Positions 4,795 to 59,910 of a stretch of DNA of 64,000 nucleotides are shown in pieces. The translations under genes were made by a program, and so were the position numbers. The notes beneath the pieces are model-generated. The model saw only the letters and a program-made list of their open reading frames with translations, ran no database searches and was not told the origin of the DNA. The stretch comes from Capitulum mitella (lineage: Eukaryota; Arthropoda; Thecostraca; Pollicipedomorpha; Pollicipedidae), in assembly GCA_030062745.1 (NCBI GenBank), contig CP099849.1, forward strand, positions 25,842,144 to 25,906,143, given 5' to 3'. Every line of letters begins with the position of its first letter. Position 1 is the first letter of the stretch.

Positions 4795-5130
4795 ACCCGG
4801 GGTCCTGCAGGTGACCGTTTGGACCCGGGGTCCAGCAGGTGTCAGCGGCCGGACGGACCCGGGGTCCAGCAGGTGTCAGCGGCCGGACGGACCCGGGGTC
4901 CCGCAGGTGTCAGCGGCCGGACGGACCCGGGGTCCTACAGGTGTCAGAGGCCGGACGGACCCGGGGTCCTACAGATGTCAGCGGCCGGACGGACCCGGGG
5001 TCCCGCAGGTGTCAGCGGCCGGACTAACCCGGGGTCCAGCAGGTGTCAGCGGCCGGACGAACCCGGGTTCCTACAGTTGTCAGCGGCCGGACGGACCCGG
5101 GGTCCTACAGGTGTCGGCGGCGGCCGAGGT
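4795..5130. repeat. GC-rich minisatellite with 34-bp period, about ten units
   Basis: The unit contains gtgtcagcggccggacgg followed by acccggggtcc and a variable agca/taca/cgca. Because 34 is not divisible by three, each forward frame cycles through the same 34-residue word, which produces three overlapping artificial open frames. These frames are not genes. Confidence 0.92.
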
Positions 5131-6421: not shown

Positions 6422-16483
<10,062 letters not shown>

Positions 16484-28695: not shown

Positions 28696-33495
<4,800 letters not shown>

Positions 33496-39009: not shown

Positions 39010-40715
39010 AATACCAGTCAGGTCAATGTCAAAAATTTGCAGAAAGTGGTCCTTTTCAAGTTAAATTGCAAATAAATGAAAGAATAAATGGTCATGAAAC
39101 AAAACAAGTATCAAAGTGTCTGTCATTCAATTATGATTTTGTCTGCACCCCACATGATTGTCTTTTACCCATGGAGTCCAATCCAAGTCATGCTAGGTCA
39201 ATCCTTGTCAAGCAGGATATCATTTGTTGACATGCATTATTAAAACTACTGAAGCATTTAAGATAATAACAGATGCTGGGGTAAAATGCAGCATCTCATT
39301 TAATGAGCACTGTTGTCAACAATAAAGATCATCTCAGGTCATCCAAGGTTATCTGAAGTCAGTGGCCAACAGTGGTCCCAGATTAGCTAAAAATCATAGC
39401 TGAGATGTCTCACAAGCATTTTTGAGTTTAAATCCAATGCAAAATCTAATTTTAGGCATGACATGATATTGCAGATCCATCATCCATGGCTGACATTGCT
39501 CTGCCCATCATAGCAAGTCATGCATTTCCTGCACTGCACCCTTTTTGGATGAAATGGAAGATAAACTGCACCCAATCTATATTATTTGACTTCATACACC
39601 TTCAGCAATCTGAATATATTGGTTGTTTTGTGATATCTATTTCCCATCACATTCCCAAAGATAAGAAGCAACATGTTCCCACCATAGCTTATGACCTCAG
39701 TTTACACCCTTGATAATCCTGATTGTGAGCATAAGGCTATTTAATCTATGTAGTCTTATGAAATATACAATCAGGGGTCAACTGATATATATTTTATTGC
39801 ATCTGTGCACTCAAACCATCTTATAGTGAGACAAAACTAAGATTGTTGTAAACTGGCTGGTCATTGTGCAAAAACAGCTGACATGGTTCCATTACAACAT
39901 CATAGCTTGTTACCATGGCAATGTAGAAAAAACAATTCACCACAAGCAGGGTTGCCCCAGCAGGTACACCAAGCTTCAGATCGATCAAATGGACCATTCC
40001 TTTGGAAAACCTGCCTTTGGAAACCTGCCTTTGCCCTGTTGTCTTTGGAAACCCTCAGGAAAAAGGTTGCATAACCACCCTTATTGGCAAGGGTTAGGGT
40101 GTTTTCTGCCACAAAAAGTCAGCTTTTAATCTTATAATTTTTTCTGTGGTGAATTTTGATATTTAAATACACAGCAATAATTACAGTTATTTTGAATAAT
40201 AGCTGCTAAGAAGGCACAAGTGTTCATTTTCAAATTTTCAGTAATTGTGGTGCATCTTGGGTGTGCACATGCCTCACTTTGCAGCAGTGTTGGAAAAACA
40301 TTTTCATTTTCTGGTGTCAAGGAGCACCAAAAAATTTATACTCCAAGAAAAATTTTGTACTCCAAAATCATCATTTGCCTCCCCTAAAAAGACATGGGTA
40401 TTCCCACTCAACCAGTTTGAAGTTGCCCAGCATTCCCCTCCCCAGTTGATGGTTTATCATCCATACTAGGCTGCTGAAGTACACTCTGAACCCATGGCCC
40501 AGCAACCTTCCACCCCCTGGTCAATGGCTCTGCTGATCTACCATGCAGACCCCAGAAAGTGGTTTTCCCCCAAACTGAGCCACTGGATCCACCCCTGCTG
40601 GCCACATATGCTTGCAAAGCATCTGGTTAGTTGACATTTCTCATATAAACACATGACATTTTACATTCCAAGAGAATTTGCACTCTGACAACAGAAAGAA
40701 AAACCAGGGTTCCAA
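39010..40715. other. Intergenic, AT-rich, no gene recognised
   Basis: Many TG/CA-rich words and short frames only; a GGTTGC/CCTTTGGAAA partial duplication occurs near 40000-40060. No RNA gene was seen. Confidence 0.45.
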
Positions 40716-40721
40716 CAATGC

Positions 40722-41083
40722 TTGGCAATCCTTTAGAAGCGCACGCCATAAACCAAGCACACTGGATGACACATATACGGCGCGCGTGGCAAAAGGAGAC
40801 GTCAGCTGTTGCAAGAAACAACAACATTATGCACTGGAGCTCCAGGGTCGTGGATCACCTACTATTCCCTAACCTAACCTAACCTAACCTAACCTAACCT
40901 AACTTAACCTAACCTAACCTACTGTGTAAAACAAGAGCGAACAGTAGGTGATCTACGACCTGGAGCTCCAGTGCATAATGTTGTTGTTTCTTGCAACAGC
41001 TGACGTCTCCTTTTGCCACGCGTGCCGTATATGTGTCATCCAGTGTGCTTGGTTTATGGCGTGCGCTTCTAAAGGATTGCCCA
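40722..41083. repeat. Inverted repeat (arms about 140 bp) enclosing telomeric pentamers
   Basis: Arms 40722-40860 and 40946-41083 are near-identical reverse complements; shared blocks include gcgcacgccataaaccaagc, acgtcagctgttgcaag and cactggagctccag. The centre (about 85 bp) is mostly (CCTAA)n plus a short unique stretch. The two outer ends share a caatcctttagaagcgc block. It looks like a foldback element or MITE that has captured, or evolved around, telomeric repeats. No clear target duplication was found. Confidence 0.88.
40868..40921. repeat. Interstitial telomeric array (CCTAA)n
   Basis: About eleven CCTAA units, one changed to CTTAA. TTAGG is the ancestral arthropod telomere repeat, which supports arthropod origin. 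The array is the loop of the surrounding inverted repeat. Confidence 0.93.
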
Positions 41084-41099
41084 ATGCTTTGCAGTCTGG

Positions 41100-44000
41100 T
41101 ACCAATGCTAGAAACAAAGGGCAGGGAAATATATTTTATTCCCAATGGCCACAACCATGACATCACCCTTCAACTCAGTTTGAGATTGGTCGAAAATTAA
41201 AAACTCCTGAATGGAAAAAGCTACAAACATGAAAGGCAGCAGTTAAATGCTTTTGTTGTTCTGGAGTTTCAAACGAAGCAAAAAAAGTCAAATAATGAGA
41301 CCGAACTGATACATTCCCTTGCCTTTTTCAATGAGAAATTTTCTGGGGATGCAATGACGCGCCAGGGCCTTCGAAAGTAGCAAAACGCCAGTCTCCTACA
41401 AAGCTTACAAAATTAAGCTACCGGCCAATGCTTACGTGTAGGTACTACTGAGAAACCCTCCTGACGACACCTCAGATCGAATCGAAGAATTTGATCCAGA
41501 TGGAAGACACACCCGAAAGTGCCTACGGCCGTGCCAGACGCCTTAACCACAGCCGTGCCTTCGGAAAAGTGAAACGTCCCCAAGCGGGTTCGTCCTGGAC
41601 CCTGAAACAGCAGACACATGCGCCGCTTCTTTCTCAAGTTTATTGCTGCCGTATTGAATAGCGATGTTTTCCTTTATGGAAAGGTTTCTGGTCACCTTCA
41701 AATTTTCCGGTAGCCTTCGGAGATTCAGAACAGTCTTAGACGGCTGGAACTGGTAAAGACTTGAATGAAGACTGTCTGAATAACGGAATTTACTAAACTT
41801 TGGTATGCAAATTTCTCTACATGAAATGAATTAAATGATTTAACTATAGGCATAACAGAAGGCAAATACGAAAAATAGTACGCTATTAGACATTCTACGT
41901 TTTCGTGAGAAAACCTTCAGAACTTCTGAAATCCAGACGAGAGGTGCTATACTCCTCCCGTAGCCTCCTTTTTAATCCTTCGTTGGCGTACCTTGATGGA
42001 CATCAAATAGGGTAGTACAAAGTTATATGTAGCTACTGCGCGAAAACGATTTCGTAGCCTGAACCTAAGGACCGTAATGCGGCAATAATGGCTTATCGGA
42101 ATGCAATCTGGAGCATTGTGAAGAAGTTTGGCAGTGAAAAAAGGGCAACTGACATTGCTGGGTTTTCGTCCGCCTCGACGCGGGCTTCGATCTCTACCAA
42201 AATGCTTATTCAGGAAATCCTCACTGACTATTGGAAGTAAGCACTGCATTAGACTGAAGATTGGACTCTTTTATTGCTATTAAGTTTAGGACATGATACA
42301 GGATTCTGGCTGTGGGCGCTCTCAAACGCCCCTGGTTCTCAGTTTTATGTATTGAACGGGATATTAGGGTTTCTGAAAAGGTGTTATGCATTATGGCGTC
42401 TGCTGAGGAATTTCCTCCATCAAACGCTTACAAGTTATGTATCCATGATTTGTACATATGCATGTGTGCATGTTTGTATTTCATCTTGGGGATTTTTGAC
42501 ACTAGGTGGCTATTGCTGTCTCCATTAGTTCATACACATCCATTTATATCTGATATATCATGCATGTCATGTCCCACTCAGCTTAAGCCATATGCAGTCA
42601 TCCTGCCTCATTATACAGTAGTGCACATCTGTGCTGTCAATTACATATTCATGATATCCATGTAATGCTTAGTGTGCATATGCCTGGACATGAAATCATA
42701 CTAGGGTAAGAAACAGTCCTCAGTATTATACAGTTACATAGGACTACATAGCACACACATTGAAAGGCAGTATTTTTCAGGAATCATATCCTCTTTGGTT
42801 TTAAATCTTGGCAGGGCAGACAAGCTTTTCACATCCTCTTGAAATGCATTCCATCTCTTATCATCCCTAAATGATGTAACTTTCTTCCCATTTTCATTGT
42901 TTACTTGTGGCTAGTGTAGTCAGTCATTCTTTTGTGTGTTCAGGCAATGTATGGTGCAGTTAGACAAAAACATTCCTTTCAGATTCTCATGGGTTTTGTG
43001 AATTACAGCTGTGTACATCATGATACTTACATAAGACTCTACAAGCTCTTCAGTATTCACCCAGCTCAGTTTTGCTCTGGCTTCTGCAATGTAATCACAT
43101 GTCTGGGGGCTAAAAATGATTCAAGCTGCAAAGTCTAAAATGCTTCCTAACCTTTTCTTCTAGATCAGTCCCTTAGGAGCTGTGACAGTAAGGCCATAGG
43201 TAATGTCCAAGATAGGTAGGAGTGAAAACCACTCCCAGGCTATTGATGTTCATAGTATCAGTCACTGTTTTCCACCCATATTTTAGCTAATTGATGGTCT
43301 TTATAGGCACTTCAAAACATTTTCCCTTGCAATGCTCAGTATTCTCAAATATTGCAAAGACCAGCCTTCACTTTGGCAGATTCTGGTGGAATCTCACTGA
43401 TGAAGTGCTCATTTGTGCTGTGCACTTTCACACATTCCTGTTTGTCTGGTGCACTCACTATAGTTCTTGTGTGAGCCAGTGCATACCTAGAGGGGATAAT
43501 CCAGGCAAAACAGCCAGGCCATGTGGAACAATGCACATGACCAGCAGGCATTGTGGTACACTGTTAGGGTTCTGTCACATCTTTGCACCAGTATGCCACA
43601 GTTTCTAATCTGATATGTGAGAAGAACTGTTTTAAACAAAAACTTGGTGGGCACAGTTAACAGTTACCTTCAGTAACTGCAAATCCACCAGCTCAAAAGC
43701 TATTTTTTATAATGCTAAACCAATAAACTACTAAAAAAAATAGTGGAAGTCAATGATAGTTTGTTACATAAATTTAGCTTCTGTTTGGTTTTGTTGGCAC
43801 TCCACCTAGTGTTGCTGGAGACAGGGCCTTGTATAATGCTTGTTTCTTTAAAAACTTGAGTGTTGGGACATAAAGGTGCTGCCTTTGGAAAGTACATGAA
43901 ATGAGCTTTCAGTTGATGTATGTTTTTTCTTATGTATATGGAAATGGCAGTAATGAGCAACGAAGATGGCCGATTTCTACTCACTTACTGTTGGCTGGGG

Positions 44001-51229: not shown

Positions 51230-51590
51230 TGCCTCTTTCGGTCTGCTTGCTGGCTTGATGTTGCCTGGTGCAGCATGATGAAAAATCTCCGTCCGTCTCC
51301 TTGCTGCCTGTCCCACTGTTGCCTAGCGTGCGGTGACCCATTTTTCCTGTCTGCTCGCTGGCTGTCCTGCTGTTTCCCGGTGCCCGTTGTCCCTGTCTGC
51401 CCGCTCGTTGGCTGTCCCGCTGTTTCCCTGTGCCGAGTGACCCGCTGCCTGTTCGCTGGCTGTCCCGCTGTTTCCCGGTGCCCGTTGTCCCTGTCTGTCC
51501 GCCCGCTGGCAGTCCCGCTGTTTCCCGGTGCCCGTTGTCCCTGTCTGCCTGCTCGTTGGCTGTCCCGCTGTTTCCCAACACCGTGCAGCT
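51230..51590. repeat. Tandem repeat, period about 50 bp, roughly six units
   Basis: Units contain gctgtcccgctgtttcccgg followed by tgcccgttgtccctgtctg and a short cgctcgttg-type end. All frames stay open, so the long frames on both strands here are artefacts. Confidence 0.85.
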
Positions 51591-51599
51591 CGCTGCCGC

Positions 51600-52720
51600 C
51601 GCCCGTTGGGCCGTTCCCGGGCGGCCGCGGCGGGCGCAGCTGAGCGCTGGCTCGCGCCGCCCGCGGCCGCCCGCCGGCCGCCCGCCGGCCTCCTCTCCCT
51701 GCAGCGTAGGCGAATTCCGGACCAAAATAAAACGGGCGCTTTTGGTCCATCTCCAACGCGCTGCGCTTCGGTCGGAGAGAGAAAACGGAGATACAGACAG
51801 CGAGAGAGAGAGGGAGAGAGGGGGGAGTGAAAGGAAAGAAAGAGGGAATGATTGGGAAAGCGGATGCGTTAGCGAGAAAGAAAAGGGTGAAAGGAAACAA
51901 TAAGGATTTCCGATTGTATGGAAGAGTAATTCTGCTTCCCGAGGCAGGTGGAGAAACACGCAACAATGCACATATGTAGCGTATCATTGAAAGATTTTTA
52001 AAAAATGCGTAATCCTATCCCTGATTCTAGTGTTTGTTTTTTTTTTTGAAGTTAGCTGTAACAAAAAGACACCAGCGCTCATTCTGAGAGACAGAGATAT
52101 GGGAAAGAGTAGGGGAGGAGAGAGGAAAGACGTGTTACGTCTCGTTATGCATATTGCCTTGGCGGACTCTGGCGCACCTTGAAACGGCCTTATCTGGCGC
52201 AAAATCTACTAGTTTTGCCTTGAACGTGCAGCTTGACAATAGTCACTGCAACGGTTTTGTATGTGCCGATGCACATTTGCAAAGCTTATAAACCGGTCTG
52301 CATTTTTTTCTGTACATTCTGGGACGTTGAGTACCGATTCCGTGAGATTTGAGTGGAGTAAAAGTTCCGTTACTTTTGTCAGGACCTTAACCTAGAATTG
52401 CTGGAATTTTTTCTCTGATTCAATGAAACTTTATCAATATGCTTAACAAAATCTCAGTTCATTTCCAGATAGCCTGTAGGAATGTATTTCAACAGAATGA
52501 CTAAAAAAGAAAGGCCAGCCATCTGCACGCATGCGCAGTCCGATCACGTCCAGCGATATCCTTACCTGTGACTTGCCAAGAAAAGCACCATATCACTTTA
52601 CATCTGTTAACGAACTAAACGTCCGCTGACTGGCGCAGTTCAGTACCACAAACCTGAGCCGGGAGACGCTGAATGAACAAACAGTGCTTTGCCCAGGCTG
52701 TTTCGCTCTGCCTGGCCCCT
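51600..52720. other. Intergenic, GA-rich and AT-rich segments, no gene recognised
   Basis: A purine-rich GA/GAGA stretch (about 51775-51850) adjoins a GC-rich block (51595-51710). No homologous protein is seen. Confidence 0.45.
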
Positions 52721-59653: not shown

Positions 59654-59910
59654 ACTTAATTCAAGCCGACGTTAACGTTTTTGGGACGTGAGCAAGGTAT
59701 GACAGACATAAGCGAGTCGTTTGCTGCGGGTAGAGCACCATTCGCTGTCCATCGAACTATGCCATAACGCGCCTTAATTCATAATTGGGCTTAATTCGAG
59801 CCGACGTTAAAGTTTTAGGGGCGTGAGCAAGATCTGGCAGGCATAAGCGAATTGTTTGCAGCGTGTAGAGCACCATTTGCTGTCCATTGAGCTATGCAGT
59901 AACGCGCCTC
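59654..59910. repeat. Tandem duplication, period 135 bp, two units
   Basis: Units 59654-59775 and 59789-59910 share cttaattc(a/g)agccgacgtta, gacataagcga-like and tagagcaccat(t)tgctgtcca blocks and end with taacgcgcc. Divergence is moderate. Confidence 0.9.

Follow-up and report, generated by a model that had tools for sequence, protein, structure and literature searches.

The window (the whole 64-kb stretch of DNA that we analysed) contains a 358-bp inverted repeat at 40724-41081, whose two arms, each about 145 bp long, enclose about 11 CCTAA units. It is probably a copy of a non-autonomous foldback MITE, about 330-450 bp long and recently amplified, which is mobilised in trans and carries its telomeric loop as a passenger; its ends and target site duplications would place it among the MULEs, although these features alone do not prove a superfamily. 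TTAGG is the arthropod telomere motif, and interstitial telomeric repeats are usually interpreted as scars that fusions or repaired breaks have left behind (PMC2246262). In this genome, the loop of a single transposon family accounts for hundreds of them, and the scar reading does not apply. Surviving intermediates make it possible to trace the route from an array-less element to a telomere-carrying MITE. The family also provides an example, from an animal, of a Mutator-type element with apparently captured non-transposon DNA. According to one survey, MULEs are rare in animals; it detected no Pack-MULE among 100 animal reference genomes but reports one, Ssk-FB4, in fly populations (excerpts of PMC8277862).

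Structure of the window copy

In a repeat search, the outer 123 nt of the arms (40724-40846 and 40959-41081) are 99% complementary, and an inner extension (40846-40870 and 40936-40960) is 88% complementary. The loop contains a perfect (CCTAA)4 array, and there is no second one in the window. When 40713-41090 is folded as single-stranded DNA, the predicted energy is -184.4 kcal/mol, versus a mean of -43.0 for 100 shuffles. Because this corresponds to z = -37, the stability of the foldback is far beyond chance, and the terminal repeats are predicted to pair, as expected for a foldback element. Another trait of foldback elements, terminal repeats that are built from short tandem units, is absent: TRF found no tandem units within the copy's arms.

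An exact 8-bp direct repeat abuts both ends of the element and fixes its borders, which the preliminary description had placed at 40722 and 41083; its account of an inverted repeat with telomere pentamers as the loop was correct. Within the family, GGT predominates at the left ends and GGC at the right ends. The window copy has GGC at both ends, which is a minority state for left ends (8/76), and it diverges from the family consensus by 1.3%. About 1.3 kb away, 42391-42404 has a 14-bp match (86%) to a segment of the MITE arm, TTATGGCGTGCGCT, probably by chance.

Table 1. Features of the window copy, in window coordinates
Feature	Position	Strand	Evidence
Left 8-bp target site duplication, CAATGCTT	40716..40723	.	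Sequence; exact match to right flank
Left terminal inverted repeat, first bases GGCAATCCTTTAGAAGCG	40724..40867	+	Arm pairing; 741 exact genome-wide matches to GGYAATCCTTTAGAAGCG
Telomeric-type array, about 11 CCTAA units with one CTTAA variant	40868..40921	+	TRF: (CCTAA)10.8, 95% match
Inner part of right repeat, absent from left arm; aligns with inner terminal repeat of array-less relatives	40922..40936	+	Alignment
Right terminal inverted repeat	40937..41081	-	Arm pairing, family comparison
Right copy of target site duplication, CAATGCTT	41082..41089	.	Sequence; exact match to left flank

A dispersed family with target site duplications

We searched the window's own genome, 477,042,490 bases in 16 contigs, with the window element, and BLAST gave at least 103 matches from the 40 scored of 573 candidates. 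The terminal 18-mer GGYAATCCTTTAGAAGCG has 377 forward and 364 reverse exact matches in the genome, and its reversed control has none. The arms are clearly not single-copy, and the window element is one member of a dispersed family, not a mere telomere scar, as the preliminary description had argued. A scan of viral contigs with a 32-base arm pattern gave no matches.

From 100 listed ends, all of them on C1, of the 741 in the genome, and from 30 BLAST loci, we extracted 76 paired elements. Each arm of a pair had to align over at least about 90 bases, so that the count excludes loci where only one arm is recognisable or the second is shorter. The 52 paired elements on C1 come from the listed ends and from BLAST loci on that contig, while the other 24, on other contigs, are the best BLAST matches and so are skewed towards the window copy. 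On C1, element length is 332-448 bp (excluding a nested outer copy). Like other MITEs, these elements are short and have many near-identical copies, and at this length they would have no coding capacity. Of eight uncounted loci that we read, four keep arrays beside damaged arms (L063, L064, L073 and L098), L094 has only a trace of the array, L060 ends after about 34 bp, and L089 and L090 are long array-less relatives. At L043:1200-1290 and L064:2800-3018, the arm is replaced by a long A-rich, homopolymer-like stretch, which looks like poor long-read consensus over the hairpin.

Among the 76 paired elements, 55 have an exact target site duplication of 9 bp, 10 have one of 8 bp, and 11 have none. 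(This count allowed a one-base shift; if we require an abutting 8- or 9-bp match, it falls from 65 to 64.) In 1,000 shuffles of the right flanks, the mean was 0.83 of 76 and the maximum was 4. The 9-bp duplications show no strong consensus. Of the 11 exceptions, L003, L007 and L008 all lie inside another transposon (which is why they have common flanks), L082 and L097 have damaged left ends, and L044 has a near-match duplication with one mismatch. For the other five, the absence of a duplication is not fully explained: L041 lies inside its partner in a nested pair, one arm of L042 is damaged, and L009 abuts half of another copy, while L013 and L053 have no explanation at all. As judged by identical left flanks, spread by segmental duplication accounts for only one pair among the 76 (L005 and L023, with a common 2.87-kb flank). 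An isolated fold-back of the assembly is very unlikely, as the same structure appears at many sites with different duplications.

Duplications of 8 or 9 bp fall within the 8-10 bp that is typical of MULEs, and terminal inverted repeats of more than 100 bp are typical of them too (here about 145 bp in the window copy and about 375 bp in a 6-kb relative, described below). The movement is most likely cut-and-paste in trans by a MULE transposase. The transposase, supplied from elsewhere, would bind the GGYAATCCTTTAGAAGCG terminal repeats and excise the element; reinsertion would occur with a 9-bp stagger (or sometimes leave an 8-bp duplication), and the (CCTAA)n loop would travel along as passenger DNA.

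Animal MULEs such as Muta1 and Tm1 resemble the family in the length of the terminal repeats, in 8- or 9-bp duplications without a consensus, and in the abundance of short derivatives (excerpts of PMC5225508 and PMC3169594). Muta1, from Aedes aegypti, also makes 8- or 9-bp duplications without sequence preference, and like the window family, it has 145-bp terminal repeats and hundreds of short derivatives with foreign interiors. Unlike for the MITE, a transposase is known for Muta1, which also has subterminal repeats of 12 bp, and the likeness is one of structural features; telomeric cargo is not mentioned in the excerpts of that article (PMC5225508). Tm1, a Mutator/Foldback element of root-knot nematodes, shares mostly 9-bp duplications, the foldback structure and MITE-like members with our family, but its terminal repeats consist of tandem units of about 14 bp, and "telomer" does not occur in the main text of the paper (PMC3169594). 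The (GTCY)n MITEs (Coates 2011, as cited in excerpts of PMC6947457) are likewise short inverted-repeat transposons that spread a simple repeat, although theirs is a tetramer instead of a telomere motif. The plant elements SaTar and Ac-mMITE are non-autonomous, Mutator-like and linked to microsatellites, with 9- or 10-bp duplications, but there the microsatellite is the target outside the element, while our array is inside (excerpts of PMC5907723 and PMC8449440). Clusters of SaTar are described in these excerpts as not nested, while nesting is seen in the telomeric MITE. Endogenous nimaviruses of crustaceans insert into (TAACC)n and are likewise mobile DNA tied to the arthropod telomere motif, but they are large viruses with tyrosine recombinases (excerpts of PMC10871703). 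In a literature search that covered titles and the starts of abstracts, with subscription journals mostly outside it, no transposon with a telomeric repeat loop was among the matches listed, which does not prove that none has been published.

To compare the arms, we considered 63 elements that have a duplication, a length below 460, and GT or GC as the second and third bases. The left and right arms of the same copy have a mean identity of 0.944, versus 0.947 for left and right arms from different copies. Identity is 0.954 between left arms and 0.970 between right arms, and one diagnostic column has G in 62/63 left arms and A in 63/63 right arms. These persistent differences speak against the arms having recently been duplicated in inverted orientation or homogenised by gene conversion; the diagnostic bases fit the spread of the family from one master. 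The preliminary description took the high identity of the arms as a sign of recency. That argument fails, but the family is indeed young and recently amplified, as is better shown by divergence from the consensus: the median is 1.7% in 74 elements (a sample that is biased towards good copies and excludes two nested outer copies) and 2.0% in the 51 of these on C1. The number of array units showed no significant correlation with divergence (rho = -0.16, P = 0.17).

The telomeric array and its origin

All 52 paired elements on C1 have at least three CCTAA units. Together with the many copies and the duplications in 65 of 76 elements, this bears out the suggestion in the preliminary description of a foldback element that carries telomeric DNA. 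Array lengths range from 33 to 113 bp, with a median of 68 bp, in the 69 elements that were measured (the measure is unsuited to 5 of the 74, and for a few long-loop copies, described below, the length takes in their spacer). A single 5-bp register is common to 62/69 lengths, and the junction strings are exact in 60/76 elements on the left and 69/76 on the right. Given these common junctions and the common register, a single gain of the array in the lineage, followed by changes in length, is probable. Among the variant units, TACCT is the most frequent (64 occurrences, versus 733 for AACCT). We can only suggest that the array may also be tolerated as a spacer that keeps the long arms from making up a perfect palindrome, which would be unstable.

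Genome-wide, (CCTAA)5 has 2,922 forward and 2,807 reverse matches (overlapping matches are counted), and the reversed control has none. Among arrays of four perfect units in the loci extracted up to L106, 127 of 128 are within 100 bp of an arm, but these loci were chosen for the element, L100 was left out, and overlapping loci were counted twice. C1 starts with 5,000 bases of N, and no array of three perfect units occurs in the 1,000 bases that follow.

The array-less relatives L089 and L090 have termini with about 92% and 90% identity to the family arm and no adjacent array. L089 and L102 together span a complete relative of 6,043 bp (C1:34077263-34083305, from L102:3976 to L089:3018). It has near-identical terminal repeats, the 9-bp duplication GCCTCCTCC, and 178-bp subterminal tandem repeats. 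There is no array at its ends, and a single short telomere-like string, TAACCTAAC, lies deep inside. Nested within it is another element, with many GTTACTCC repeats at its ends, which by its motif looks like a hAT-type insertion. None of the 10 ORFs that we compared to Pfam (of 15 with at least 75 amino acids) matched a family, and no transposase was seen among them. The relative at L090 continues through repeats of about 178 bp, with a 500-base N gap further on.

Five "long-loop" copies (L044, L049, L082, L097 and L107) have a spacer of about 60 bp between the array and the right arm. In L044, alignment pairs the spacer with the array-less relatives' inner terminal repeat, and the array is placed where the relative's inner sequence stops. 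Joining TAGG in the arm to TTAGG in the array deletes the spacer and yields the compact junction. At two columns of the alignment, the four tested long-loop copies have the same state as the relative, from which compact copies mostly differ (56/68 and 54/68). At 22 columns, four of which are gap columns, the majorities of long-loop and compact copies agree against the 6-kb relative. In a tree, the long-loop copies are near the root and do not form one clade. As far as sequence comparison can order these forms, this suggests that an array-less element gave rise to the long-loop form and then the compact form, followed by a burst. A longer element of the same lineage would have lost its middle, and the gap would have been closed with telomeric repeats, giving the long-loop form; the first repeats could have come from telomerase, from a captured telomeric fragment or by growth from a seed. 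A second deletion, at the TAGG and TTAGG microhomology, would have dropped the spacer, and the compact form would then have multiplied while slippage changed the array's length in 5-bp steps. The only sign that would fit a telomerase step is short microhomology, seen by eye (CT at the left junction and TAGG at the second deletion).

Could each array instead be a telomerase insertion, made during the repair of a double-strand break at that site? Rodent and primate genomes provide documented examples that show microhomology (excerpts of PMC2246262). However, independent repair would leave each array alone at a unique site with unrelated flanks, while the extracted copies have the array between the same arms, with common junctions, and most have target duplications. 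We consider this explanation highly implausible. The preliminary description also raised a break that was repaired with telomeric sequence, followed by inverted duplication. This has no support at the window site: the arms are the terminal inverted repeats of a transposon family, and the same arms occur without the array in the 6-kb relative. A telomeric repair event may have taken place once, in an ancestor of the family. It is also conceivable, though we doubt it, that the array was never captured from telomeric DNA but arose as a microsatellite, by slippage from a short CCTAA-like seed that the element happened to contain. Array length does move in 5-bp steps, from about 4-5 units in some long-loop copies to 20 in one compact copy, and other MITEs are reported to have hitchhiking (GTCY)n arrays (excerpts of PMC6947457). 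But a chance seed does not predict the same motif in at least two other repeat families, and perhaps a third, and the position of the array in L044, at the end of the relative's inner sequence, also argues against it.

Another explanation is that the element targets telomeric-type repeats and that the loop is a carried-along target, as in plant Mutator MITEs that target microsatellites (excerpts of PMC5907723 and PMC8449440). Two elements are inserted in the array of another copy, with target site duplications GGGTTAGGT and ACCTAACTT, and a third, which lacks a duplication, abuts a sibling's array. With some 370 arrays in the 477-Mb genome, each about 68 bp long, we estimate that about 0.004 such insertions among 76 elements would be expected by chance. 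On the other hand, local re-insertion would account for the nesting as well, and 62 of the 65 elements with duplications have no adjacent telomeric-type sequence at the threshold we used (only L059, L002 and, weakly, L026 were flagged). Targeting of this kind seems unlikely to us. We prefer a MULE-type MITE whose lineage gained the telomeric repeats once, as passenger DNA.

Other array-bearing repeats and the rest of the window

A second transposon, which has CAAGACGTCCTCGGGA and TCCCGAGGACGTGTTG at its ends, includes MITE material in seven copies, and all seven have a perfect 7-bp duplication. Three of them (L003, L007 and L008), with inverted arms of about 240 bp, contain the whole MITE, while L103-L106 contain only the array and the right arm; by eye, these four half copies have one common breakpoint.

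We also examined the first 100 matches to (CCTAA)5, which form 27 loci at C1:2.54-10.78 Mb (one stretch of a contig and not an estimate for the genome). Ten of the 27 are the telomeric MITE: eight by element coordinates, L043 by reading and L107 by arm matches. When the other 17 were compared by BLAST of their masked flanks, 12 were in one dispersed repeat, 2 were in a second repeat, 2 formed a weak pair, and 1 stood alone. The dispersed repeat includes L111 and L113-L123 (C1:7.24-10.78 Mb), and it also occurs at L015:1125-1424; several of its loci have two arrays, with the unit between them duplicated. The second repeat (L108 at C1:3107530-3107870 and L109 at C1:3934750-3935100) has its (CCTAA)n array at one internal site, and pieces that resemble its flanks are also present in L004, L082, L087 and L106. 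The weak pair (L110 at C1:3993660-3994020 and L112 at C1:7308750-7309080) has a common 52-bp flank with 83% identity, and is perhaps a fourth repeat with telomeric cargo. One could speculate that the genome's interstitial telomeric DNA is mainly transposon-borne, and that unrelated families have each gained (CCTAA)n, insert into one another's arrays and acquire one another's loops (as the second transposon has acquired the MITE's), with the result that cassettes of the telomere motif move among transposons and may exchange with true chromosome ends, but we hold this only tentatively and think it is probably not the case.

In the window as a whole, we found no tRNAs and no matches to Rfam at the gathering score. 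When we compared 10 of the window's 27 ORFs of at least 170 amino acids to Pfam, there was one match, below the cut-off, to DUF3682. TRF also identified a (GTGC) array of about 54 units at 7894-8108, a (GA) array of about 50 units at 28869-28967, and minisatellites at 2484-2890 (108-bp unit), 4821-5121 (34 bp), 51347-51609 (50 and 98 bp) and 59655-59909 (135 bp).
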